From Gammaproteobacteria bacterium (GTDB lineage Bacteria > Pseudomonadota > Gammaproteobacteria > SZUA-152), in NCBI GenBank assembly GCA_022627515.1, contig JAKEGK010000015.1, forward strand, positions 1 to 45,720: a DNA stretch of 45,720 nt. Direction: 5' to 3'. Shown one piece after another: positions 1-24,029 of this stretch (position 1 is the first letter of the stretch; each line of letters opens with the position of its first letter). The notes under the pieces are model-generated. The model ran no database searches, was not told where the DNA came from, and worked only from the letters and a program-made list of their open reading frames with translations. The position numbers and the translations under genes are program-made.

Positions 1-1501
1 ATGCCTGGGCAACCGTCATTATGGCATTATGGTGCCATTCCCAATCGTGAGAAAGCAGCGCTGCTTGTTTTAACCAATTATTATCAAATTTTTGCGTTGC
101 GTCCGACCACTCGTTGCGCGCTTCTTCCATTTGATTTACCAAAAAAAGCTCCCGGGCGCGCTGGATAGCGGGAATCCTGGTGATTTCCTGGATGACTTTC
201 TCATCACGGGGCAAGGGCTCCATATTAAACGAATAACTAATCCCGATACGGTCCGCTGATAAAAATCCATAATAATTGGTTTGGGTTGCTATTTCTTCAA
301 AAAGCTTTTTCGCTTGTTCCTTTTTACCTGATTGTTCCCATGCTCTTGCCAGCCAGTATCGCCATTTGGGTTCCTCTTCTTCTATTTTTGGTAAACGGCC
401 AATATCGTTTTCCAAAGCTTTCCAATCCTGCGCGCGCAGTGCGGTCATGGCGCGCCAGTACAATACATCGTCATCAATCCAATTTTTACCAATTTCATTT
501 AGCCATTTATATGCATTCGGATGTTGTTGATAGGCAGAACGCAGCGCGATATAGCGTTGCATCTCACCCAGTTGTTGTCGGCTGAAACCCCGTTTATGTT
601 GCAGTTTGGCCCATTTTTCTTTCGCCCGTTCCGCATCGCTGCGCGCCATGCGTTGAACACCATGAATAATGATCTTGCGGTTAATCGAAGTCCTTTCATG
701 CAGCTTTTTTGAATCGAGATGATTGGCCGGATTTTTATGCACATCGATCCACAGATCCACCTGTTTGCGATCCCGCTTAACGAGCTTTTTGCTCAACTCT
801 CCCGCCAGCGGGATATTTCCTTTTTCCATGGCGTTATCGATACGTTCCCAAATCAGCTGTTGCGTTAGCAACTTGCTTTTCTCAAACCGGCCGAAAATAT
901 TTTCACACTCTTTGGGTTGTTCAGTTCCTGCTTTCCACAAATCTTTGGCTTCGTTCATGACTGCCTGGTAGGTTTTACTGGAATTGTCTGTCGCGAGCCG
1001 GGCGTGCAGATACGCGCAGCGCAATTTTGTCCCTTCCTGTGCTTTGTATATTTTCAGGTATTGTTCCCAACGCTGGTCTTCCGCCAGTCTGTATAACCAC
1101 TGAGTGCGTATTTTGTAACTCAAAGGTGTATCGTTATAGTTTTCAATGAACGCCGTCAATTCATCATCGCTGGCCGACGACAATCGATTGCGCAATCCAT
1201 AGTACTCAAGGTAGGGATATAAAATATAATCCTTGCTTTGTGTTTTTAATGTCTCAAAATTTTCCAGGTTGCCGTTTTCCAGTGCATCAACCGCATCACG
1301 GAACAAGGCGCGTTTTAATTCAGTAAGATTAGATTCCAGCAAGGCGATCGGCGCGCTGGAGTTGAGGCTCACGGCCGTGGTTGCAGAGACGGCCGCTGCG
1401 CCCGGCGGTTCCGCAGGGAGGGTGTTATCCGCTTGCGCATTATTTATCACAAGCGGCAAATATACCGCCTGCGAAAAAATCAAAAACGAGATACGTTTCA
1501 T
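1..1501 (-). CDS. slt: Soluble lytic murein transglycosylase, Slt70-like (3' end missing)
   Basis: The minus strand is open from ATG at 1501 to the window edge, giving 500 codons with no stop. The protein begins with a signal peptide (MKRISF..., hydrophobic to about residue 22, likely cleaved after NAQA). It continues as an alpha-helical, Trp/Tyr/Arg-rich repeat region (for example YPYLEYYGLRNRLSS and WRYWLARAWEQSGKKEQA). This is the U- and linker-domain pattern of Slt70, a periplasmic enzyme that cleaves peptidoglycan to 1,6-anhydromuropeptides. The C-terminal lysozyme-like catalytic domain should lie beyond position 1, so the catalytic Glu cannot be checked. The family is usually about 640 residues. 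The gene is divergent from the aminotransferase at 1778. Family assignment is by recognition of the N-terminal pattern only. Confidence 0.8.
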   Translation of the reverse strand, partial: MKRISFLIFSQAVYLPLVINNAQADNTLPAEPPGAAAVSATTAVSLNSSAPIALLESNLTELKRALFRDAVDALENGNLENFETLKTQSKDYILYPYLEYYGLRNRLSSASDDELTAFIENYNDTPLSYKIRTQWLYRLAEDQRWEQYLKIYKAQEGTKLRCAYLHARLATDNSSKTYQAVMNEAKDLWKAGTEQPKECENIFGRFEKSKLLTQQLIWERIDNAMEKGNIPLAGELSKKLVKRDRKQVDLWIDVHKNPANHLDSKKLHERTSINRKIIIHGVQRMARSDAERAKEKWAKLQHKRGFSRQQLGEMQRYIALRSAYQQHPNAYKWLNEIGKNWIDDDVLYWRAMTALRAQDWKALENDIGRLPKIEEEEPKWRYWLARAWEQSGKKEQAKKLFEEIATQTNYYGFLSADRIGISYSFNMEPLPRDEKVIQEITRIPAIQRARELFLVNQMEEARNEWSDATQKFDNNWLKQAALLSHDWEWHHNAIMTVAQA

Positions 1502-1777
1502 GCTGTTATAAAAATAACGCATAGCGCAACATTAACTTTTAGATAATTACTTAAGTAGTTAGTTTATAAATAATATTTGACCGCGTCCATGCCTAAAACC
1601 GGAATAATTTCTTAGAATGAATATCGGCTGATTGGCAGGGTTAATATAGCAAAATCAGAAAATAAAAGGCAGGTGATTTCTATATTATCCTAATACATTC
1701 AATATATTAGATCATGGTACTGGAAATTGTCGCTACGATGGTGAAATTAATAATTAAGGCAGAAAAACGGATTATAT

Positions 1778-2914
1778 ATGAAATATAAAGCTGAATTCGC
1801 ACTTGATAAAAACATCATATACCTCAATCATGCCGCAGTATCACCCTGGCCGCTTAGAACACGCAATGCGGTAATACATTTTGCCGAGGAAAACTGCCGC
1901 TTAGGTTCACTAAACTATTTGCAGTGGATCGAAACTGAAACCGCATTGCGCAAACAACTGCAAATCCTCATCAATGCCCCATCGCATCAAGACATCGCGC
2001 TCGTAAAAAACACCTCCGAAGCGTTGTCCATAGTGGCTTATGGCATCCATTGGCAAATGGGTGACAATGTTGTCATTACCAATCTGGAATTTCCTTCAAA
2101 TCATATCGTCTGGGAATCACTGTCCACGCAGGGCGTTGAACTGCGCATCGCGGACGTTACAGATTGTACAGATAGTTCGCCTGAACAGACTATTTTTGAC
2201 TGTTGCGATTCGCACACGCGCCTGATATCCGTTAGTTCCGTGCAGTATGCCCGTGGTTTGAAAATGGATCTGCCGCGGATCGGAGAGTTTTGCAAATCGC
2301 AAAATATATTGTTTTGCGTGGATGCCATTCAAAGCGTTGGCGCGCTTAAGTTTGATATTCAGCAATGTCAGGCGGACTTCGCGATGGCTGATGGTCATAA
2401 GTGGATGCTGGGGCCGGAAGGATTGGGTTTTTTTTATTGCGCCAGCCATCTTCGCGACCAGCTTGAATTGACTCAGTATGGCTGGCATATGGTCGAAGAT
2501 CATGGAAACTACGAAGCACAACATTGGCGCGCTGCGTCATCCGCCCGGCGTTTTGAATGCGGCAGCCCCAATATGCTGGGCATTCATGCGTTAAATGCCA
2601 GCCTGTCACTGATTCTGGAAGCGGGCTTAACGGAAATAGAGCAAAGGGTACTGCGTAATACACGCTTTATGCTGGATGAGATCGATGCCCGGGAAAATCT
2701 TAAGTTGTTGTCGCCGTCTAACCTGGATCGATTAGGGGGAATCGTAACGTTCAAACACAAACACCATTCCGCTAACGGAATTTATAAAAAGCTCAGGCAA
2801 CAAAACATCATGTGCGCCGAGCGAGGTGGAGGTATCCGGTTTTCACCGCATTTTTACACGGACCAGGAACAAATCCGCGCGGCCATTGATCTCGCGAATA
2901 CAGTTACAGAATGA
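1778..2914 (+). CDS. Class V aminotransferase (PLP-dependent, cysteine desulfurase/epimerase-like)
   Basis: 378 residues with a fold-type I PLP enzyme pattern: N-terminal YLNHAAVSP, a phosphate-binding KNTSEALS near 77-84, the PLP-ring Asp182 in VDAIQSVGA, and Schiff-base Lys208 preceded by His207 in DGHKWMLGPEG. The C-terminus has the RGGGIRFSPHFY motif of the isopenicillin N epimerase/EgtE-like branch. I do not see the RxGHHCA-type catalytic Cys loop of SufS cysteine desulfurases, so sulfur transfer is not supported. The substrate is unknown. The start ATG has an AGGCAG-like ribosome site upstream. The gene stands alone, divergent from slt and convergent with sppA, with 19 bp between the stop codons. 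Confidence 0.82.
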   Translation: MKYKAEFALDKNIIYLNHAAVSPWPLRTRNAVIHFAEENCRLGSLNYLQWIETETALRKQLQILINAPSHQDIALVKNTSEALSIVAYGIHWQMGDNVVITNLEFPSNHIVWESLSTQGVELRIADVTDCTDSSPEQTIFDCCDSHTRLISVSSVQYARGLKMDLPRIGEFCKSQNILFCVDAIQSVGALKFDIQQCQADFAMADGHKWMLGPEGLGFFYCASHLRDQLELTQYGWHMVEDHGNYEAQHWRAASSARRFECGSPNMLGIHALNASLSLILEAGLTEIEQRVLRNTRFMLDEIDARENLKLLSPSNLDRLGGIVTFKHKHHSANGIYKKLRQQNIMCAERGGGIRFSPHFYTDQEQIRAAIDLANTVTE

Positions 2915-2933
2915 AGGATCTGTCAGACCGGAA

Positions 2934-4139
2934 TTATTGAATCGCTGCCGGATTCACACCCAGCGTTGTTGCCATCATCTTGGCGAATCCTGCGCCGAGG
3001 CGTTCCGCGAACCGGTCGAAATAATTCGCGCGTACCGTAAAATCCACCAGGTTTTCAGCGCCAACGATCTCCCGCGCGACATAACTGGAGCTGCCCAGGC
3101 CATCCACCAGCCCAAGCTTTACACCCTCTTCCCCGTTCCAGAACAGGCCACTAAACAATTTCGGGGACTCTTTCAGGCGGTCGCCGCGCCCTTCTTTGAC
3201 AACATTGATAAACTGCCGGTGCACACCATCCAGCAATGATTGCATGTGTTTGAGATCGTCCTGTTTAACCGGAGAAAATGGATCCATTACACCTTTATGT
3301 TCACCGGCGGTGATGAGCCGGCGTTCGATACCCAGTTTTTTCATGGCTTCGACAAAACCAAAGCCATTCATCAATACCCCAATGGAGCCAACGATGCTGG
3401 CTTTGTCAGCGTAAATCTCATCGGCGGCCGCGGCGATGTAATAGCCGCCTGAAGCGCAGATGTCGGTTATGACCGCATAGAGTTTGATACCCGAATATTT
3501 TCCACGCAAGCGCTTAATCTCGTCGTAAACATAACCAGCCTGCACGGGACTGCCACCCGGACTATTGATGCGCAGAATAACCGCCGCGGTATTCTTGTTT
3601 TTAAACGCGGCCCGCAAACCGCTGACTATGTTATCCGCATTGGCTTCGGTATCCGCACCAATCGCTCCGGTCACTTCGATCAGCGCCGTATGCTTGCCGC
3701 CCGCGATGCCTTTTTGACCGAGATCAGATGGTATGTAAAACAGCAGGGCGCCAATATAAATAAATGCCAGCGCTTTGAAAAATACGTTCCAGCGGCGCGC
3801 GCGGCGTTGTTCATTTAACGCGGCAAACGCCAGGCGGTTAAGAATATCGCGGTCCCAATGCTCGCCGGACAAATCTAATTTGCCCTTACCTTTACCGGAA
3901 AAAATACCGGCTGATTTTGGTTGTGCCCGGGTTTCATCAGTGTGCAACGTTGATGTGCCAGCGTGTTTTTCAGCAACCGGCGGCGACTGCGTCCAGGGAT
4001 CCTGTGTCTCGTTATGCTCAGAAGTCAAAGATGCCGCCGGCTTGCCACCCTCGGCAGCATCGGCAGCCGATACTTTACCCTCAGTCTCTTCTTGCTTAGT
4101 TGGGTCAGTGGATGAATCTTTTTTGTCATCGTCAGTCAT
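2934..4139 (-). CDS. sppA: Signal peptide peptidase SppA, short S49 form with long N-terminal tail
   Basis: 401-residue inner-membrane serine protease that degrades cleaved signal peptides. Residues 1-118 are hydrophilic and low-complexity (rich in D, E, K, T, S). One membrane segment lies at about 119-136, followed by the S49 domain: VILRINSPGGSP at 187-198, nucleophile Ser230 in ICASGGYYIA, GSIGV at 251-255, and the probable general base Lys282 in GEHKGVMDPFSP. This matches the Ser/Lys dyad of the single-domain SppA type rather than the double-length E. coli enzyme. The cytoplasmic tail is longer than usual for the type. Transcription probably continues from rluC and the HAD gene upstream, with a gap of about 96 nt. 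Confidence 0.9.
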   Translation of the reverse strand: MTDDDKKDSSTDPTKQEETEGKVSAADAAEGGKPAASLTSEHNETQDPWTQSPPVAEKHAGTSTLHTDETRAQPKSAGIFSGKGKGKLDLSGEHWDRDILNRLAFAALNEQRRARRWNVFFKALAFIYIGALLFYIPSDLGQKGIAGGKHTALIEVTGAIGADTEANADNIVSGLRAAFKNKNTAAVILRINSPGGSPVQAGYVYDEIKRLRGKYSGIKLYAVITDICASGGYYIAAAADEIYADKASIVGSIGVLMNGFGFVEAMKKLGIERRLITAGEHKGVMDPFSPVKQDDLKHMQSLLDGVHRQFINVVKEGRGDRLKESPKLFSGLFWNGEEGVKLGLVDGLGSSSYVAREIVGAENLVDFTVRANYFDRFAERLGAGFAKMMATTLGVNPAAIQ

Positions 4140-4235
4140 TAGGTCAGAATCCTTTGCTGGGGGTGCAATATATTATTATAACTTCTGGCATGAAAATGTT
4201 TTGGGATACAATGTTTGCTATCGGCTAATAGCCTG

Positions 4236-4895
4236 TCAAATTGCAATTTTCTCGCCACCTAGCCAATTAAGTAAAGCACGAATCTCGTCAATAACAGCCA
4301 CTGGTTCGCATTGTTGCAATCGTTCAGTATCGTGGACACCATAACTCACGCCGATCGCATGTACACCGGCGTTTTTGGCCATTTGTAAATCATATTCAGT
4401 ATCACCAATCATAACGGCCTTTTGTGGTTCGACACCAAGTTCTTCGAGGATTTCTTCCAGCATCTGGGGATGCGGCTTGGAGCGGGTTTCATCGGCGCAT
4501 CGGGTCGCATGAAACCATTGGCGGAAACCCGTGCTATCCAGCGCTTTGTCCAGACCTCGGCGTCCTTTACCGGTGGCGACAGCCAACAGGTAATCATTGC
4601 CCGCCAAATGAGATAAGACAGATTCAGCGCCCGGAAATGGCTGTGATGGATCGCTGCTTAAAAAATGATAACGGTAACGATCCACCATTTGCTCGTATGC
4701 TCGCACATCATGATCCGGGAAAAGATCGTTCAGCGCTTCATAGAGGCCAAGGCCGATAATGTTACTCAATTGATTTTCGGTCCGGTGCGGCAAATTGAGA
4801 TCATTTATCATCCATTGAAGACATTGAACGATATTAGCCTGTGAATCGATCAACGTACCATCCCAATCAAAAATAACGAGCTCGATTTGTTGCAC
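4236..4895 (-). CDS. HAD-family phosphatase, Gph-like
   Basis: 219 residues. The HAD nucleophile motif is FDWDGTLID, with Asp10 as nucleophile and Asp12 as acid/base. A cap region follows (YEQMVDRYRYHF), then AVATGKGRRG (motif II Thr), the KPHPQML Lys, and GDTEYDLQMAKNAG (motif IV). This is the phosphoglycolate phosphatase/pyrophosphatase subgroup; the substrate cannot be told from sequence. The start is GTG at 4893-4895, sharing one base with the rluC stop (TAGTG), which implies translational coupling. The trio rluC-HAD-sppA is a conserved gammaproteobacterial arrangement, so a housekeeping role such as metabolite repair is likely, but this is inferred. Confidence 0.87.
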   Translation of the reverse strand: MQQIELVIFDWDGTLIDSQANIVQCLQWMINDLNLPHRTENQLSNIIGLGLYEALNDLFPDHDVRAYEQMVDRYRYHFLSSDPSQPFPGAESVLSHLAGNDYLLAVATGKGRRGLDKALDSTGFRQWFHATRCADETRSKPHPQMLEEILEELGVEPQKAVMIGDTEYDLQMAKNAGVHAIGVSYGVHDTERLQQCEPVAVIDEIRALLNWLGGEKIAI

Positions 4896-5875
4896 TACAA
4901 ATTACCTTTGGCTGATAAGTTAAATTCATTCTCGCATTTTTCCAGTACTTGTTCTAATTCCGGTCCCAATGGCGCCACGATGGTGATATTGCCATTAGCA
5001 CCTGGCGCGAAAAAAGTGATGGATTTGGCGTGTAAAAACAGCCGGTCCAACCCTAGCGCTTTCATGGACAAGTTAAATCCTCTATGACCGTATTTCTCAT
5101 CACCGGCTATTGGGTAGCCCGCGTGGGCGGCGTGCACCCGTATTTGATGAGTACGGCCCGTTATGAGTTCCACTTCCATCAATGTAGCTTGCGCATAGAT
5201 TTTGATGGGTTTAAAAATGCTTTGCGCCGGTTTACCTTCGGGATCAACACGCACAATCCGTTCTCCGGACTTCAAGGTGTTTTTCCGTAATGGGACTTCA
5301 ATGCTTTGTTTTCCACCTTTCCAACAACCCTTCACCAACGTCACATAATTTTTTCGAATATTATTATTACGAAGTTGTTCATGAAGCTGCGTGAGCGTGC
5401 TGCGTTTTTTAGCGATCAAAAGACAGCCCGAGGTGTCACGATCCAACCGGTGCACCAGTTCCAGGTGATGCTCTTCAGGACATAACGCCCTCAACGCTTC
5501 TATCACACCATATTGGATGCCGCTTCCCCCGTGCACCGCCAGCCCGGCGGGTTTATTGAGTACGAGCAGATTGTGGTCATCATAAATGATGGCCGATTGC
5601 ACATCCGCCAGTATTCCCGCCGCCGGCGCGTGAGTTGATGGCCCTTCTTTCGTAGTTACGCGAACCGGCGGGATTCTCACGTGATCTCCGGTTTTCAGGC
5701 GGTAGTCTGGTTTGATTCGGCCCTTATTGACGCGAACTTCACCTTTGCGCAATAGTCTATATATTCGGCTTTTCGGCACGCCTTTTAGTTGGGTTAGTAA
5801 AAAGTTGTCTATCCTCTGACCAGAGCGCTCTTCACTAATCTCCAGAATAAAAGGTTTTTCAGTCGATTTTTCCAT
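4895..5875 (-). CDS. rluC: 23S rRNA pseudouridine synthase RluC
   Basis: 326 residues. An N-terminal S4 RNA-binding domain covers about residues 18-70 (RIDNFLLTQLKGVPKSRIYRLLRKGEV is its core). The RluA-type catalytic domain carries HRLDRDTSGCLLIAKK, with catalytic Asp145, and ends with GRTHQIRVHAAHAGYPIAGDEKYG. RluC isomerises specific uridines in 23S rRNA domains II and V. The gene is divergent from rne, as in E. coli and Pseudomonas, which is what favours RluC over the related RluD. ATG start at 5873-5875. The stop overlaps the GTG of the HAD gene. Confidence 0.93.
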   Translation of the reverse strand: MEKSTEKPFILEISEERSGQRIDNFLLTQLKGVPKSRIYRLLRKGEVRVNKGRIKPDYRLKTGDHVRIPPVRVTTKEGPSTHAPAAGILADVQSAIIYDDHNLLVLNKPAGLAVHGGSGIQYGVIEALRALCPEEHHLELVHRLDRDTSGCLLIAKKRSTLTQLHEQLRNNNIRKNYVTLVKGCWKGGKQSIEVPLRKNTLKSGERIVRVDPEGKPAQSIFKPIKIYAQATLMEVELITGRTHQIRVHAAHAGYPIAGDEKYGHRGFNLSMKALGLDRLFLHAKSITFFAPGANGNITIVAPLGPELEQVLEKCENEFNLSAKGNL

Positions 5876-5927
5876 AACATAAATGGTTTATATTGAAGGT
5901 TTAGCACTGATATCTAATTTGTTGACA

Positions 5928-5956
5928 TTGTCGAAGGCTGATATAACTGCTATAGT
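5928..5956 (+). promoter_or_regulatory. Candidate rne promoter (extended -10)
   Basis: TTGTCG at 5928-5933, a 17-bp spacer, then TATAGT at 5951-5956 preceded by TG at 5948-5949 (extended -10). Transcription would begin near 5963. A consensus TTGACA at 5922-5927 lies just upstream but has no -10 at proper spacing. Prediction only. Confidence 0.5.
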
Positions 5957-5962
5957 CAACAA

Positions 5963-6278
5963 ATACAAGCGGGATAGCTTTGAAGTTACGTAAGAAAGTG
6001 AATTCCAATAGGATTTCAGGTATCCGTTTCAGCGCGGGTACAAATTATACAGTAATCAAACAGTTGTTAAAAATTTAATATAACGTAAAAACTTAACAGA
6101 GTGCGCTCCCTTGCGGATCAACCATCATGCTTGTGAACTTGCTGAGTGGATAAACCTTAGCTTCCACACGCCTAAGACGGCATAAAGAAGAAATATAAGT
6201 AACAGGCGGACAACTCTCAGCAAGAGCTATCCCGGAAGGAAGGGATGCAAGGTATGAGCGCCGAGAGAGAATAATACA
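5963..6278 (+). promoter_or_regulatory. Long rne 5' leader, probable RNase E autoregulation region
   Basis: No gene fits between the rluC start and rne, a gap of about 400 bases. From the predicted start site the rne leader would be about 316 nt. In E. coli a leader of similar length lets RNase E cleave its own mRNA. Here the last 80 nt hold a small hairpin, ATCCC (6229-6233) pairing with GGGAT (6242-6246). CTCTC at 6214-6218 is complementary to the purine tract GAGAG at 6263-6267 just before the start codon. No strong Shine-Dalgarno is free. The autoregulatory role is inferred from family precedent and not shown by homology. Confidence 0.45.
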
Positions 6279-8924
6279 ATGAAAAGAATGTTGTTTAACG
6301 CAACTCAACCTGAGGAGTTGCGTGTTGCGCTGGTGGACGGCCAACGCCTTTATGACCTTGATATCGAGTCTGCTGGCCGCGAACAGAAAAAAGCCAATAT
6401 TTACAAAGGCCGTATCACTCGGCTGGAACCCAGCCTCGAAGCGGCCTTTGTTGACTATGGCAGCCAGCGTCATGGTTTCCTCCCTTTAAAAGAAATCTCA
6501 CGCGCATATTTTGACCCATCTGTCGACCTCAGTGGCGGCCGGATTAATATCAAAGAAGTGATCAAGGAAGGTCAGGAGGTCATCGTTCAAATAGAAAAAG
6601 AGGAACGGGGCAATAAAGGAGCGGCATTAACCACCTTTATTAGTCTGGCCGGCCGTTACCTGGTATTGATGCCGAACAATCCCCGGGCTGGTGGTGTGTC
6701 GCGGCGTATCGTCGGCGAGGATCGCCAGGAGATCCGTGACGCACTTATCGATCTGGATATACCACTCGATATGGGCATTATTGTGCGTACCGCCGGGGTT
6801 GGCCGAAACACCGAGGAGCTGCAATGGGATCTAAATTACCTGCTTCAGCTCTGGGAAGCGATCGAAAAAGCCACTAAGGAGCGGTCCGCGCCTTTTCTTA
6901 TTTATCAGGAAAGTAACGTTATTATCCGCGCGCTGCGGGATTACTTGCGCAGCGATATCAGTGAAATCATTATCGATGAGCGTGATACATACAATCACGT
7001 TCGCGAATTCATGCAACTTGTTATGCCTTCCAACCTGGATAAGGTAAAGCTATACCAGGAAAGGGTTCCATTATTTACCCGTTTTCAGATCGAATCCCAG
7101 ATTGAAACCGCATTTCAACGCGAGGTGCGCCTGCCATCCGGCGGCGCCATTGTGATGGATCACACCGAGGCGTTGGTATCAATCGATATCAATTCGTCGC
7201 GAGCCACCAAAGGCGGTGATATTGAGGAAACCGCGCTCAACACCAATTGCGAGGCAGCGGAGGAAATCGCCCGGCAATTACGGTTACGGGATCTGGGCGG
7301 ACTTATCGTCATAGACTTTATTGATATGACATCCACCCGCAATCAGCGGGAGGTCGAGAACACCTTGAGAGAAGCCCTCAAGATGGACCGCGCTCGCGTG
7401 CAGATCGGCAGAATTTCGCGATTCGGACTACTGGAAATGTCGCGCCAACGCTTGCGGCCGTCGCTGGGAGAATCCAGCCAGGTGGTCTGCCCGCGCTGTC
7501 AGGGTCAGGGAACTGTTCGCGGCACGGAATCCCTCGCGCTCTCGATCCTGCGGATCATTGAAGAAGAAGCCATGAAAGAACAAACCGCCAAGATTGTGGT
7601 GCAACTCCCGGTCAATGTGGCAACTTATCTGCTCAATGAAAAACGTCAATCACTGATCGATATCGAAACGCGGCAAAAAATCGCCCTGCTCCTGCTGCCA
7701 AATGAAAGTTTTGAATCACCCCACTACGATATTCAGCGGATTAAAATCAGCGAGGTCAGCCAGGCTGCCAGCCAATCCAGCTACGAATTGACGATCGAGC
7801 GCGAAGAAGCGCCGGAATCCATGGCGGAAACCCAAAAAGCACAGATAGAAGAACCCGCGGTTAAGTCGGTGGTGCCTTCCCAGCCAGCGCCAGTATCGCC
7901 GGTGGCGCCAAGCCGCGCGGAACCCGGTTTTCTAAAACGGTTGTTTAACACTTTATTTGGCGCCACCGAGGAAAAAGCAAAACCAGCCGGCAAAACACCA
8001 GCCACAACCCGCCCATCAGCGCAACGGCCACAACGCGGCGCACCAACCCGCGGCGCCCAACGGCCGGGTCAAGGTTCGAGAAAACAACGGCAGCAGCAAC
8101 GCCGTAGCGAAGGTGGCCGCCGCCAGGAATCCGCAATGCGCGATAAAAAAGGCGGCGCGATCGTACCCGGAAGAGAAACCCGTGCGCCTCAACCAGTTGT
8201 TAGTGACGCACCCGCCGCTGCTGAAGAAGCCGTATCTATAACCGGGACCGCGGCAGAAACTTTCACGGCTAAAGAAACAAAATCCGATACCAGCAGGGAA
8301 AGCAGGAATGTACGGCGCGGACGCCGCGGCGGACGCCGCAGACGCCGCGAGGGTGGCCGCGAGAGCGACAGCGACAAAACAAAAGCTGCGGTGCCTGAAT
8401 ATGAAACACAGAATCAGCCGGAAGCCGGGGCGTCTCCAGCAAATACCGCCGTTGAAACCAGCGCATCGAACCCGGCACACGACGGCGGTGGAATCAAGGG
8501 TGAAAGCAGCAATTCCCCCAATCAAGCGCACGCGGCAAACACTGCGATCTCCGGCTTTGGCGGCGCCCATCCATATGGCAAAGATGCGCAATCAGCGTCA
8601 ACTGAACGGTACTCCGGCGGACTTACCCGGGAGTTTGTGGAACAACCAAGGCAAATAGTAACAGACGCGCCATCCAAACCGGACGCAGATTACCAACGCA
8701 GTCCCGTGTTTAATGACGGCGCCGGTGATCAATCGCATCCACGGTCTGAATCGTTTAACCGTCCGGCAACAGGTTCCAGTTCCAGCGAACCAGAACCGCG
8801 CGATCAAACGGTTTATACAGCAGATGTGAGGGAACAGCCGCACATCAGTACGGAGCAAAACAGTTCCTCACCGTCTGATGATACCGATAACAATGCCTAT
8901 AAGGTCAAGAATTCCAACAACTGA
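6279..8924 (+). CDS. rne: Ribonuclease E
   Basis: 881-residue endoribonuclease and degradosome scaffold. The catalytic half is complete: an S1 domain at about 38-120, the 5'-sensor/RNase H-like region, Mg-binding Asp303 (SIDINS) and Asp346 (VIDFIDM), and the Zn-link CPRCQGQG with Cys404 and Cys407. These positions coincide with the E. coli numbering. The C-terminal half is low-complexity. A short amphipathic stretch near residue 549 ([11 protein letters not shown]) resembles a membrane-anchoring segment. It is followed by Arg/Gln-rich tracts and a strongly basic [15 protein letters not shown] block typical of RNA-binding segments. The last 180 residues are disordered and rich in S, N and P. 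The gene stands alone on its strand and ends at a probable bidirectional terminator. Confidence 0.97.
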
Positions 8925-8941
8925 TCAGAAACTGTAAACAT

Positions 8942-8976
8942 AGCTGCACGTGATTGTATGGCAAGCGCGTGCAGCT
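8942..8976. terminator. Bidirectional hairpin between rne and ptp
   Basis: Perfect 9-bp inverted repeat AGCTGCACG (8942-8950) and CGTGCAGCT (8968-8976) with a 17-nt loop. It lies between the convergent stops of rne (8924) and the phosphatase gene (8977). T-tracts are poor on both sides, so termination may be weak or Rho-assisted, or the stem may protect 3' ends. Confidence 0.5.
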
Positions 8977-9459
8977 TCATTTCAGGCCGGTGTGTTTTTC
9001 CAGAATGCTTTGCAGTAAACCGCTGGCGGCATCTTCTATGAGATCCAGCACCCGTTCAAATCCCAACGGTCCGCCGTAGTAAGGATCCGGTACTTCCTTG
9101 ATATCGTGATGACTGCCATAGTCCAGAAACAATTGTAGCTTGGAACTATATTGCGGCGCGCACAAAGACTGCAAAATCTGCAAATTGTCATAATCCATCG
9201 CCAGCACATAGTCAAAGCGTTCAAAATCTTCCGCTACGGCTCTCCTTGCGCGCAAATGACTGATCTCGACGCCGCGCGCCCGCGCTGATTTCTGCGCTCT
9301 TGGATCAGGCGGTTCTCCCACGTGATAAGCATGGGTGCCCGCGGAATCAATGCCAATTTTATCCAGCAAACCGGCCTCTTCCACCCGGCGCGTAAATACA
9401 CCCTCCGCCGTCGGTGAACGGCAGATATTGCCCATGCAGACGAACAGCACATTAACCAT
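8977..9459 (-). CDS. Low-molecular-weight protein-tyrosine phosphatase
   Basis: 160 residues from ATG at 9457-9459, which follows a clear AAGGAG seven bases upstream; reading the frame further upstream adds an implausible 15-residue tail. The P-loop is at the N-terminus: FVCMGNICRSP, with nucleophile Cys8 and Arg14. The general-acid Asp sits in VPDPYYGG. The family removes phosphate from tyrosine residues, and bacterial members often act on capsule/exopolysaccharide tyrosine kinases. No such kinase is in the window. The position beside kdsB is the conserved gammaproteobacterial context, so the substrate remains open. Confidence 0.92.
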   Translation of the reverse strand: MVNVLFVCMGNICRSPTAEGVFTRRVEEAGLLDKIGIDSAGTHAYHVGEPPDPRAQKSARARGVEISHLRARRAVAEDFERFDYVLAMDYDNLQILQSLCAPQYSSKLQLFLDYGSHHDIKEVPDPYYGGPLGFERVLDLIEDAASGLLQSILEKHTGLK

Positions 9460-20094: not shown

Positions 20095-20850
20095 CTACAC
20101 ATCGTACATGAGATTTTCATCCGGTTTGAAAAACCACATCTGGTACAACGAAATCAACGCTTGCGCACCGAAACTCACACCCATTACTCCACCGCTGATA
20201 AGTACAACATAAGCAAAAGGTGGAAAAATCTTGGTGAGATACCAGGAGGCAATGTCAAATAAAATTGATAAAAATGGCAAAGCGATAATCAGGCATTTCA
20301 GCCATTTCAGTTTCAAATAGGCATGGCAAAAAATCGTTCCCATTATAAAAAATATAAACGTCAAACCGAACAGGTGAATGTGTGAAACGCGAACCAGGGT
20401 GAAGATATCCATACCGGTATCCATTTCCGCGGTCTTTGCCACGTTCGCGTGGCCTTTCAGATTTGGAATATGGGGATTGCTGCCGTCGTGACAGATATTA
20501 CAGCGTTGGTCTATGATGCTTTCCACTGTCGCAAAATCCTCGTTCTTTGCGCCGCGCCGCACCCAGGCAATAATTTCATCCTTTTCCTTGGCCGGCAGCA
20601 TGTTGGCCATCGGCCCCTTTAACGCCGCTTCGATACGGGTATCACTCTTACTACCGCTATAAGCGATTATCAGGTCATTTACTGACAACATTGGATTGCC
20701 ATCCCGGCCAGCATGCGATTCAAAAATATAAATCATCGCGAACATGTAACCCGTGCTCAATACGATGATTGCCGAGCTGAACAAGGTCCGTTGCCCCAAT
20801 GGTAAAAAAGAAAAATGCACACAGCGAGGAGCAGGCTGATTGGTAGACAC
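20095..20850 (-). CDS. Membrane-bound c-type haem protein of unknown function
   Basis: 251 residues from GTG at 20848-20850, which has AAGGAG six bases upstream; a GTG 26 codons earlier has no ribosome site. The first membrane helix is at about 24-44. A periplasmic domain follows with a single CxxCH haem site, CNICH at 117-121. Then come three helices beginning at VRVSHIHLFGLTFIFFIMG, with conserved-looking His residues that could ligate haem or metal. The layout suggests an electron-transfer or gas-sensing subunit. I recognise the pattern as a conserved proteobacterial type but cannot assign a reaction. An FNR-type box lies 102 nt upstream. No oxidase genes are adjacent. Confidence 0.75.
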   Translation of the reverse strand: MSTNQPAPRCVHFSFLPLGQRTLFSSAIIVLSTGYMFAMIYIFESHAGRDGNPMLSVNDLIIAYSGSKSDTRIEAALKGPMANMLPAKEKDEIIAWVRRGAKNEDFATVESIIDQRCNICHDGSNPHIPNLKGHANVAKTAEMDTGMDIFTLVRVSHIHLFGLTFIFFIMGTIFCHAYLKLKWLKCLIIALPFLSILFDIASWYLTKIFPPFAYVVLISGGVMGVSFGAQALISLYQMWFFKPDENLMYDV

Positions 20851-21197
20851 GATTAACTCCTTTTTTGATTCGTGTAGTTGTTTCTTGTTTCGTATTATCG
20901 GGGATGTTACCTGCCGGAAGATTAACACAGCGCAGGCGATATTTCTTGATATATATCAGCACCACAACATTTACAAACTTACAGTGAATGGCCGCCAGAT
21001 ATTATCATTTTTCGCCTGGAAATTTGATGAATATTTTTGTCATGCAAGGGAGACTTCCGGCCGATTTTTGCCGATTACCGGTTTGTTTGTTGCACTGCCG
21101 GCACGATCAGGCGCTGTCAAGCAAGGCAAAATATTCCTTTAAGCGCTATCGTTGTACTGCGGTTAATGCAATATCAGCGGCCCAGGCAATATGCCGG
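20851..21197. other. Intergenic region upstream of the haem-protein gene
   Basis: This gap of about 350 bases holds no supported gene. Short open frames lack ribosome sites and family resemblance. The one clear element is the FNR-like dyad at 20946-20959. The rest has no strong hairpin or long repeat that I can see. Transcription into the haem-protein gene probably begins here rather than in the secreted-protein gene upstream. Confidence 0.6.
20946..20959 (-). promoter_or_regulatory. FNR/ANR/DNR-type binding site
   Basis: TTGAT-ATAT-ATCAG matches the FNR-family consensus TTGAT-N4-ATCAA at 9 of 10 positions. If it acts as a class II site (centre at -41.5), transcription toward the haem-protein gene would start near 20911, with TAATCT at 20924-20919 as a poor -10, leaving a leader of about 60 nt. 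A site of this quality in a gap that leads only into a c-type haem gene is plausible regulation by oxygen or nitric oxide. Confidence 0.55.
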
Positions 21198-21725
21198 TCA
21201 CTCACACTTGCCGGTGCATTTAATTAACAGTTGAGCGCAACTGATTTGCGCAAAGTCATCCTTGATTTCCGCCACCACTCCAGAGCCTGAATGCACCATC
21301 CAGGCGTTGTTACACTGTTTTTTATGGGAAATGTAGTAGGGTTCGCCTATCCAGGAAACATTGGCGCAGGCGGGACCGCCGATACCGAAATGTATGCCAA
21401 CCTCATAATCACCGCATAACAATCCGCTATGTTTAATTTCCGCTTCCACACTAAACTCGCCGTTTTCCTTTAACCAGGCTACCGCATTGTCAAACTTAAA
21501 ATCCAGTTTCTGCGGCAGGCCACCATCTACAATATCCATCGACTTGCGCGCCACCGCGGAATATTTTTTCACGACGGTTTTTTTCTCAGCGGTTTTTTTC
21601 TCAGCGAATGTGGACGTTGACCAGAGCATTCCGGCGCCCGCAATGAGGCAAAGCAAAAGCTTGATTGATGAATTGCAGCTATCAACGATGCCGCCGGTAT
21701 TTTGTCTGCCTTGAAGTCCGATCAT
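21198..21725 (-). CDS. Small secreted cysteine-containing protein, unknown family
   Basis: 175 residues. The ATG follows an AGGGTGAGG tract. An N-terminal extension precedes a hydrophobic signal core (LLLCLIAGAGMLWSTSTFA), and cleavage before EKK is likely. A Lys-rich linker contains a 15-bp tandem duplication encoding AEKKT twice. The mature part ends in a cluster of Cys residues (CGDYEVG, PACANVSW, KKQCNNAW, ISCAQLLIKCTGKCE) that could form disulfides in the periplasm. No enzymatic motif is recognised. I cannot assign a function. Confidence 0.68.
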   Translation of the reverse strand: MIGLQGRQNTGGIVDSCNSSIKLLLCLIAGAGMLWSTSTFAEKKTAEKKTVVKKYSAVARKSMDIVDGGLPQKLDFKFDNAVAWLKENGEFSVEAEIKHSGLLCGDYEVGIHFGIGGPACANVSWIGEPYYISHKKQCNNAWMVHSGSGVVAEIKDDFAQISCAQLLIKCTGKCE

Positions 21726-21872: not shown

Positions 21873-22349
21873 TTATTTTTTTATCGCAATATAAATTTCA
21901 ATCCTGGCCGGATTGTCATCGCTATAAAGTTCAAAATCCGTGGTAAATGCCCGGGCATAATCCGCGGTGCTGGAAAAATATTCCCATATTGTTTGCCACG
22001 TTGAATAAATAACCGCTGGCATATCTCCTTCGCTGGCAAAAACCAGGTAAAGAGCCTCGGGGACATTAACTGCCGCGAAACCTTCTGGCAACGCAACAAT
22101 GTCCGATACCTCCCGGCCTGCAATAAGTGAATAATGGCCGCGCTGTTCGTTATCGTAGTCAGTATATACGCCAAATAGCGTACCTTCATCCACCCTGTTT
22201 GGAATTTGTTCTTCAATGTTTTCAGTAAAAAACCGTTGCCACAAAGCCGGAATGCAGGCGGTTTCCGGATTTGATTCCACCGTGTTGGAGGTCGAGGTTT
22301 TTATACCGGCAATTTTCTTGCCGCCGACAAATTTTTCGTATATTTCCAT
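21873..22349 (-). CDS. GyrI-like/AraC effector-binding domain protein
   Basis: 158 residues comprising a stand-alone effector-binding domain of the Rob/SbmC (GyrI) type: N-terminal EKFVGGKKIAGIKTSTSN, central LFGVYTDYDNEQRGHYSLIAGREV, WQTIWEYFSSTADYARAFTTDFELY, and the closing ARIEIYIAIKK. The family binds small hydrophobic or cationic compounds, either fused to regulators or alone (as in SbmC, or as hydrolases of toxic compounds). There is no DNA-binding domain here. It is preceded by a reasonable promoter and separated from the amidase gene by about 96 nt. Confidence 0.82.
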   Translation of the reverse strand: MEIYEKFVGGKKIAGIKTSTSNTVESNPETACIPALWQRFFTENIEEQIPNRVDEGTLFGVYTDYDNEQRGHYSLIAGREVSDIVALPEGFAAVNVPEALYLVFASEGDMPAVIYSTWQTIWEYFSSTADYARAFTTDFELYSDDNPARIEIYIAIKK

Positions 22350-22445: not shown

Positions 22446-24029
22446 TCAGGGAAATCGCGGCGGTGGTTTGCGGTGATGGGTTGCCTGTTCATAAGCATAC
22501 GCAAATGTAAAAAGGTTCGCCTCACTAAACGGCCTTGCCAAAAATTGCAGGCCGGCAGGCAACCCTTGTCCGGTAAATCCCATGGGCACTGTAATCGCCG
22601 GTTGCCCACTGTGCGGCGCGATAATGGGGCTGTTATTTCCGTGCGGCGAATCGAGGTCACCGATCAAACGCGGCGGATTATTCCATGTGGGATAAACAAT
22701 CGCGTCAATGTTATGCTCGTCCATGGCCTTTACTACAGCATCCCGCAATGCTTTGCGCCTTGGATCGCCTTCGACATCCACACAGGGTATTTCCTGTTGT
22801 TCCGGCGGGACGTTCTGCGACATGGCCCATTCCATACCGCCTTTGCTTGATTCATGAAACTGTCTGGCATCCACAATATCCTCAAGCTTTTTCACCGGCG
22901 CGGACGGACCCAGCGATGTGAAATAATTATTTATATCGTAGCGAAACCGGCTGCAAAATCCTGTCGCTTTGGTTAACTGTTCCAGATTTTCTATACCAAA
23001 CGGATCGATAATTTCCGCTCCCAATGCCCGCATATCATTTAACGCGCGCTCGAATAAAGCAATTATTTCCTGATCCGCGTCCGGCGCGTCACTGATGTCC
23101 CTTAACACGCCAATACGCGCGCCTTGCAAACCGTCTTTTTTCAGATAGACAAGGTAATCGTCCGGCAGTTTTCCATTACTCTGATGCGTTTCGGGATCAG
23201 CGGGATCATAGCCGTCAATGACATTAAATATCCGGGCCGCATCCTCGACAGTGCGTGACATAGGTCCTGCTATATCACGATTAAATAACAAAGGTATTAC
23301 ACCATCGCGGCTGGTGGCGCCGATCGTGGAACGAATACCTACGAGCGCCAGATGCGAGGCCGGTCCCCGGATGGAATTACCGGTATCGGTGCCCATTCCC
23401 ACAAGCCCGAAATTCGCAGCCACCGCGGATGCGGTGCCGCCACTGGACCCGGCGGGCACCCGTTCCAGATCATAGGCGTTGCGTGTTTCCCCCAGTGTTG
23501 AACTGATGGTGAAATAAGGACTGAACGCCCACTCGGCCATATTGGATTTTGCAATAATAACCGCACCAGCCTCGCGCAGCTTCCGCACCATAAAGGCGTC
23601 ATCCGGCGGCAGTGAATTTTTCAGAACCATGGAACCGCCGGCGGTCGGCATATCCGCCGTATCAAAGTTGTCTTTTAAAATGACCGGCACACAATGCAAC
23701 TCCCTCAATTGACCTGTTTCTTCGAATTCCTTATCCAGCATAGCCGCGCGTTTACCGGCATTGGGATTTATCATCACAATCGCATTCAAACCTGACGGCC
23801 TGTCGTACTGTTTGATACGTTCCAAATAAATTCCCACCAGGCGCGCACAGGTAAGCGTTCCCGCGCGGAACGCCGCGTGCACATTGGCAATCGTGGTTTC
23901 CTGTACATTGTAGTTTGACGATATTTCTTTACTGGCAGAGGGTTTTTCATCGGGAGAAACCGTGCAGCCAATCAGAATACTCAGACAAGCTGCTAGAGAA
24001 AGTAGCTTGACGTTCAATTGAGATTTCAT
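22446..24029 (-). CDS. Amidase-signature family lipoprotein
   Basis: 527 residues. A lipoprotein signal ends in LSILIGC with lipid-bearing Cys22, so the enzyme is likely anchored in the envelope. The amidase-signature triad is complete: Lys119 (VILKDNFD), cis-Ser195 (AGSSGGTASA) and nucleophile Ser219 (GTDTGNSIRGPA), with the 24-residue Ser-Ser spacing seen in peptide amidase and FAAH. It hydrolyses an amide, but the substrate is unknown. The position outside the cytosol argues against GatA or the indoleacetamide hydrolases. Its ATG overlaps the mazG stop (ATGA). Confidence 0.9.
   Translation of the reverse strand: MKSQLNVKLLSLAACLSILIGCTVSPDEKPSASKEISSNYNVQETTIANVHAAFRAGTLTCARLVGIYLERIKQYDRPSGLNAIVMINPNAGKRAAMLDKEFEETGQLRELHCVPVILKDNFDTADMPTAGGSMVLKNSLPPDDAFMVRKLREAGAVIIAKSNMAEWAFSPYFTISSTLGETRNAYDLERVPAGSSGGTASAVAANFGLVGMGTDTGNSIRGPASHLALVGIRSTIGATSRDGVIPLLFNRDIAGPMSRTVEDAARIFNVIDGYDPADPETHQSNGKLPDDYLVYLKKDGLQGARIGVLRDISDAPDADQEIIALFERALNDMRALGAEIIDPFGIENLEQLTKATGFCSRFRYDINNYFTSLGPSAPVKKLEDIVDARQFHESSKGGMEWAMSQNVPPEQQEIPCVDVEGDPRRKALRDAVVKAMDEHNIDAIVYPTWNNPPRLIGDLDSPHGNNSPIIAPHSGQPAITVPMGFTGQGLPAGLQFLARPFSEANLFTFAYAYEQATHHRKPPPRFP

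Follow-up and report, generated by a model that had tools for sequence, protein, structure and literature searches.

A putative monohaem membrane cytochrome c from a widespread family of proteobacterial proteins, and the FNR-type box upstream of its gene

A gene on the gammaproteobacterial contig analysed here (the window, meaning the whole stretch of 45,720 nucleotides) belongs to a large, widespread family of proteobacterial proteins. It may encode a membrane haem-c module of a periplasmic electron chain, possibly tuned by an FNR/ANR-type regulator in the lineage of the window; taken as a whole, we give this reading an even chance of being right. The product would be a monohaem cytochrome c anchored in the membrane: helix 1 together with helices 2 to 4 would fix its haem-c domain to the periplasmic side of the inner membrane, and the haem would exchange electrons with soluble c553/c4-like periplasmic cytochromes. 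Conserved polar residues (H157, H159, D199, W203 and K207), grouped close to the periplasmic end of the membrane part, would be the likely point of contact with a donor or acceptor in the membrane, most simply the quinone pool, and in this lineage expression may be adjusted to oxygen by an FNR/ANR-type regulator acting at the box (20946-20959). The analysis shows the sequence features themselves, the conservation within the family, the association with cytochrome genes in the genomes of relatives, and the existence of FNR-like regulators. We infer the attachment of haem, the membrane topology, the identity of the redox partners, the contact with quinones and the regulation. The window protein reaches no curated family, though its relatives number at least 577 and often lie beside genes for periplasmic cytochromes. 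Should it prove to connect the membrane with these cytochromes, a missing piece would be supplied to the models of respiration and extracellular electron transfer in many uncultured proteobacteria.

The protein and its conserved residues

The window protein comprises 250 amino acids and has a single CxxCH site (CNICH). An AlphaFold2 model built on an alignment of 68 family members (A2; mean pLDDT 91.4, pTM 0.81) places long helices at 18-46, 149-174, 182-208 and 210-239, in agreement with the original prediction of a four-helix membrane protein bearing one CNICH site, which lies in a small helical region between predicted helices 1 and 2. Since the attachment of haem c requires the periplasm, helix 2 should begin in that compartment, with H157 and H159 near its periplasmic end in the model. 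The same prediction spoke of histidine-rich helices, and this wording overstated the case: membrane histidines do exist, but H157 and H159 both belong to helix 2, and H176 lies just beyond the far end of that helix. Nor can the two universal membrane histidines face one another across helices, since one helix carries both, with two residues' distance between them. A bis-histidine haem b held between helices was considered for the same residues and found to be unsupported, both universal membrane histidines being on helix 2.

Conservation was assessed over 113 sequences, 92 from group A and 21 from the paralogous group B, a set that includes near-identical rows from two collections. Twelve residues (M81, C117, C120, H121, H157, H159, G162, P192, D199, W203, G220 and W239) are identical in all 113. 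The CxxCH site is therefore invariant, as is the HxH motif with which helix 2 opens, and helix 2 is the most conserved region of the protein. K207 is present in 92 of 92 group A sequences and in 95% of the 21 from group B; for H176 and H127, conservation is confined to group A. H121 is the expected haem ligand, and M81, H157 or H159 may supply the sixth. That the membrane partner is a quinone is our guess, prompted by the invariant polar residues near the periplasmic edge of the membrane, and it stays a guess from conserved residues because no clearly related solved structure was found by a profile search of the PDB, by Foldseek or by VIA-align. In its most ambitious form the idea would make the protein a new type of minimal quinone-cytochrome c oxidoreductase, controlled by oxygen in some lineages. 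Built of four membrane helices, it would use its invariant HxH/Asp/Trp/Lys cluster and a single periplasmic haem c to pass electrons between quinones and tandem-domain c553-like cytochromes; this version we hold to be improbable.

Searches of family and structure collections placed the protein nowhere in particular, and its description as uncharacterised holds: no Pfam or NCBIfam model was matched at or above its cut-off, and the sole Pfam hit, PF13442, scored 12.6 bits against a cut-off of 27 (E 0.17). The 68 members of A2 touched 14 Pfam families at E values up to 0.1, the best being S_100 (7.2e-05) and PccH (0.0016), and their best NCBIfam hit was the alpha subunit of hydrazine synthase (E 0.0006); these weak hits were set aside as resemblances due to the haem site or to chance. 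Against the PDB, the sequence profile matched hydrazine synthase alpha over a short segment at a haem site (E 0.0097) and gave two weaker hits. Foldseek returned no match at E <= 0.001, while VIA-align returned chiefly helical bundles, with Z up to 8.3, which possibly reflect a mere common arrangement. The window protein had no match in plasmid records. A word search of the literature, which is not searchable by protein, returned no paper recognised as dealing with the family, and no characterised member was found.

Helix X of the haem-copper oxidases bears a motif that resembles the HxH of helix 2, and the protein could be pictured as a distant, minimal relative of the oxidase helices in which HxH ligates one or two haems. 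The resemblance is one of motif only (VSHIHLFG in the window protein, AHTHINLLG in a small COX1-family protein of its own genome). The hhalign probabilities against two single oxidase-family sequences were 0.5 and 0.8%, PF00115 was not among the hits of the window protein or of the 68 A2 members, and no second universal membrane histidine lies on another helix; we consider such a descent extremely improbable.

Gene neighbourhoods and candidate redox partners

At least 577 relatives were confirmed in public genome contigs. In a sample of 370 genomes of the class, 62 carry a family member, paralogues included. Neighbourhoods were read at 80 named loci drawn from these relatives. A cluster of c553/c4-like cytochromes, formed by single linkage, mixing several small cytochromes and checked in Pfam through one member, is represented in 61 of the 80 loci and within 1.5 kb of the gene in 57. 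An adjacent open reading frame (ORF) with CxxCH occurs in 59 of 80, an approximate count, as are all those of adjacency, because neighbouring ORFs were called mechanically and antisense frames replace real genes in some loci. Of the 175 ORFs that lie no more than 1.5 kb from the gene, 88 carry the motif, against 29 of 250 beyond 4 kb. MtrA- or MtrB-like genes, which belong to outer-membrane electron conduits, appear in 7 of 80 loci, NrfD-like genes in 8 and a nonahaem-b561 protein in 12, with one representative of each kind checked in Pfam. Within the 26 group A loci, a spoT-like gene (as read) is present in 12 and a recG-like gene (as read) in 12, often with small c-type cytochromes on one or both sides. 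The possible role of accessory electron carrier, one of two suggested at the outset, fits the cytochrome neighbours of the relatives and has good backing from gene context.

The window itself presents a solitary gene, as originally predicted. Apart from the cytochrome gene, the 38 window ORFs checked hold no CxxCH; no c553/c4-like, other cytochrome or regulator gene lies near it; and the genome's five COX1-family matches are all on other contigs. Relatives of the partner cytochromes are nevertheless encoded elsewhere in the same genome (contigs C42 and C59). One has 574 aa and six haem sites and is 41% identical to a neighbour of the gene at locus L117; the other, cut off at a contig end with 263 aa and three haem sites, is about 60% identical to a protein near the gene at L107. 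Across the 370 genomes, co-occurrence was at the level of chance for the nonahaem-b561 protein (6 shared genomes, against 62 x 27 / 370 = 4.5 expected) and for NapC-type cytochromes (21 shared, against 19.1 expected), in a test that is blunt, since the shared genomes come from a manual count and the 62 comprise paralogues as well as orthologues. These chance-level results count against the preferred reading, as does the lack of cytochrome genes near the window gene.

The same surroundings would suit a simpler arrangement, in which the helices are a plain anchor that makes no contact with quinones and the protein is a tethered one-electron shuttle, carrying electrons to or from oxidases on one side and the bc1 complex or soluble cytochromes on the other. 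A single haem site and the frequency of soluble c-type cytochromes among the neighbours agree with this, and the genome encodes three long COX1-family proteins that such a shuttle could serve. The pattern of conservation argues otherwise, since the prominence of helix 2 and the presence of H157, H159, D199 and W203 in every aligned sequence go beyond what a simple anchor should require. We therefore regard the shuttle as somewhat unlikely.

The other suggested role, that of an oxygen or NO sensor in which the haem or HxH binds the gas and signals, found no positive evidence. The FNR-type box and the NorCB-like genes of the genome could be cited for it, as could two-component genes at some related loci (as read, LuxR-type response regulators and NtrC-type regulators at 7 loci each of the 80, and histidine kinases at 4). 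Against it, the window protein has no Pfam signalling domain, c-type cytochromes are far commoner neighbours than regulators, and the latter are missing from the vicinity of the window gene. A sensor is very unlikely on this showing.

The preferred reading, a membrane haem-c module, finds parallels in known systems. CymA, NapC and NrfH (PF03264) are likewise inner-membrane c-type cytochromes tied to periplasmic cytochromes, the role proposed here; they possess several haems and one helix, whereas the window protein has one haem site and four long helices, and PF03264 was not among the hits of the window protein or the 14 families of the A2 members (E up to 0.1). The soluble c553/c4-like cytochromes (PF00034, PF13442) share the CxxCH haem site and are the likely redox partners; the window protein differs from them in scoring below the PF13442 cut-off and in its four long helices. 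In those portions of the article by He et al. (2017, PMC5566968) that bear on it, the inner membrane protein of the PCC3 and PCC4 clusters of iron oxidisers is given five helices and two WX3HX13H motifs; like the window protein, it is an inner-membrane redox candidate beside c-type cytochromes, and the related loci with MtrA- or MtrB-like genes add to the likeness of setting. As far as that account goes, the window protein departs from it in having four long helices, one CxxCH and an HxH but no WX3HX13H, there being no tryptophan with a histidine at +4.

Several loci have a character of their own. On contig C59 of the window genome (positions 1-9000, L206), a cytochrome cluster holds a partial c553-like protein with three haem sites in the contig, a nonahaem-b561 fusion, monohaem and dihaem cytochromes, a sulfide dehydrogenase-like flavoprotein (as read) and a NapC-type tetrahaem protein; relatives of its c553-like and nonahaem-b561 proteins lie near the studied gene at L107. 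Contig C225 of the same genome (L209) carries haem-copper oxidase-like genes together with cytochromes, a Sco-like protein and a small member of the COX1 family that contains AHTHINLLGW. At L158, L161, L164 and L176, a histidine kinase and a response regulator (as read) are encoded ahead of a tetrahaem cytochrome and the orthologue, with a frame on the other strand occupying the place of the orthologue at L161. The paralogues of group B (L057-L077) are 36-41% identical and often lie beside methyltransferase or P-type ATPase genes (as read); two of them, L076 and L077, presumably resemble proteins annotated 'elongation factor-1 alpha'.

The upstream box and its possible regulator

The box consensus of FNR, ANR and DNR is TTGAT-N4-ATCAA. 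As predicted from the sequence, a dyad that matches nine of its ten specified bases (TTGATATATATCAG on the forward strand) occupies the 347-nt gap upstream of the cytochrome gene (GC 0.435), 96-109 nt before the GTG start at 20850; the genes on both sides of the gap are on the minus strand (Table 1). Further upstream lie the gene of a Cass2/GyrI-like small-molecule binding protein (21873-22349, minus strand) and, next to it, an amidase-like gene (22446-24029, as read).

Table 1. Features in and around the upstream region of the putative cytochrome gene
Feature	Position	Strand	Remarks
Putative membrane monohaem c-type cytochrome gene	20098-20850	-	251 codons; CNICH 117-121, HIH 157-159, four long helices
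Upstream gap holding the dyad	20851-21197		Between cytochrome gene and preceding gene
Ribosome-binding region AAAAAAGGAG	20857-20866	-	6 nt before GTG; read from sequence
Possible -10 element GTTAAT (TGT before it)	20921-20926	-	Read from sequence; weak
FNR/ANR-type dyad (CTGAT-ATAT-ATCAA on the strand of the gene)	20946-20959	-	9/10 match to consensus
Preceding gene	21198-21725	-	175 aa; N-terminus looks signal-like by eye; matches nothing in Pfam or NCBIfam

The start codon is backed by the ribosome-binding region and by the N-termini of orthologues, which begin at nearly the same point; a longer frame from a GTG at 20928 is unsupported by the aligned orthologues. The best -10-like hexamer here is GTTAAT, 19 nt after the box with a distance between centres of 29. 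In a class II FNR promoter the centre of the box lies about 32 nt from that of the -10 element, so the spacing here is about 3 nt short of that value, and a promoter scan listed no site at the hexamer. The dyad is real as sequence and improbable only mildly. A match of at least 9/10 arose in 2.3% of 5000 dinucleotide shuffles of the gap (P about 0.023; a perfect match in 0.1%), and sites of this quality are not uncommon: the window contains nine matches with at most one mismatch, two of them (20946 and 43911) outside ORFs of at least 120 aa. The genome as a whole (4.45 Mb) has 432 matches of at least 9/10, or about one per 10 kb, of which 22 are exact. The pattern read backwards (79 genome matches, against the 432) was tried as a control and set aside, since reversal yields another sequence, for which a different number of matches is to be expected.

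The dyad is missing before most of the orthologues examined, which goes most of the way to the refutation named at the outset. In relatives' genomes, the 300 nt upstream of each match contained a box of at least 9/10 at one of 26 group A loci (L043) and at three of 21 loci of group B (L067, L069 and L070, with TTGAGCGG(T/C)ATCAA). Among the 80 named loci, a box of at least 9/10 preceded the related gene at four (L107, L122, L124 and L129); where a full upstream stretch of 320 nt was available the count was 4 of 79, against 34 of 544 neighbouring ORFs of at least 120 aa in the same loci; L043 and L107 appear to be one contig, with an identical box, and L122 and L124 have one box in common. On these counts the box was rejected as a family trait: taken together, the related genes do not resemble an FNR regulon.

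The relative at L107/L043 is of the same family, and its box (TTGATTAATATCAC) is similarly positioned, 105-118 nt before ATG, with TATAAT 21 nt further on (centre distance 31), a spacing near the class II layout; at L047, in a genome of the same genus as this relative (G004), the best upstream match is 8/10. The search for relatives' genomes yielded no second genome from the genus of the window organism. The genome of the window organism has seven HTH_Crp_2 matches. In two of these (L094 and L096) CxxCx5C stands close to the N-terminus and the recognition helix contains ETVSR, features that we take to be marks of FNR/ANR, so that both are presumably FNR/ANR-like. The gene of the first (contig C39) has its own 9/10 box, TTGACATATATCAA, 86-99 nt before ATG, which resembles that of the window in sequence and distance and suggests autoregulation of the FNR-like gene; no box of at least 9/10 was present in the 350 nt upstream of the second. 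Expected FNR targets lend no added support: of the three long COX1-family proteins, read as CcoN, NorB (for which COX1 was also found in Pfam) and one of undecided type, the CcoN-like and NorB-like genes, the latter belonging with genes read as NorCB, have no box of at least 9/10 within 350 nt upstream, and the third has none of even 8/10 within 400 nt.

The predicted FNR-type control therefore stands in part: the box is good and two FNR/ANR-like regulators are at hand, but it is missing before most of the orthologues examined, and in this, as in its unclear -10 spacing, it differs from an established FNR/ANR/DNR site. FNR/ANR control specific to the window lineage remains plausible in view of the similarly placed box at L043/L107 and the similar one before the FNR-like gene. 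That the box is instead a chance match, the gene being expressed without FNR/ANR control, is a prospect falling just short of even. The related genes are no richer in boxes than their neighbours, matches recur throughout the window and the genome, and the spacing to the -10-like hexamer is non-canonical; the shuffles of the gap, together with a position like that at L107 and like that before the FNR-like gene, weigh on the other side. As a regulatory site the box is ordinary, and it is of little import beyond the window lineage. Among the more distant relatives, a Rhodospirillales chromosome (L129) has two perfect FNR boxes, starting 272 and 233 nt before the match, ahead of the orthologue and then a tetrahaem cytochrome gene.
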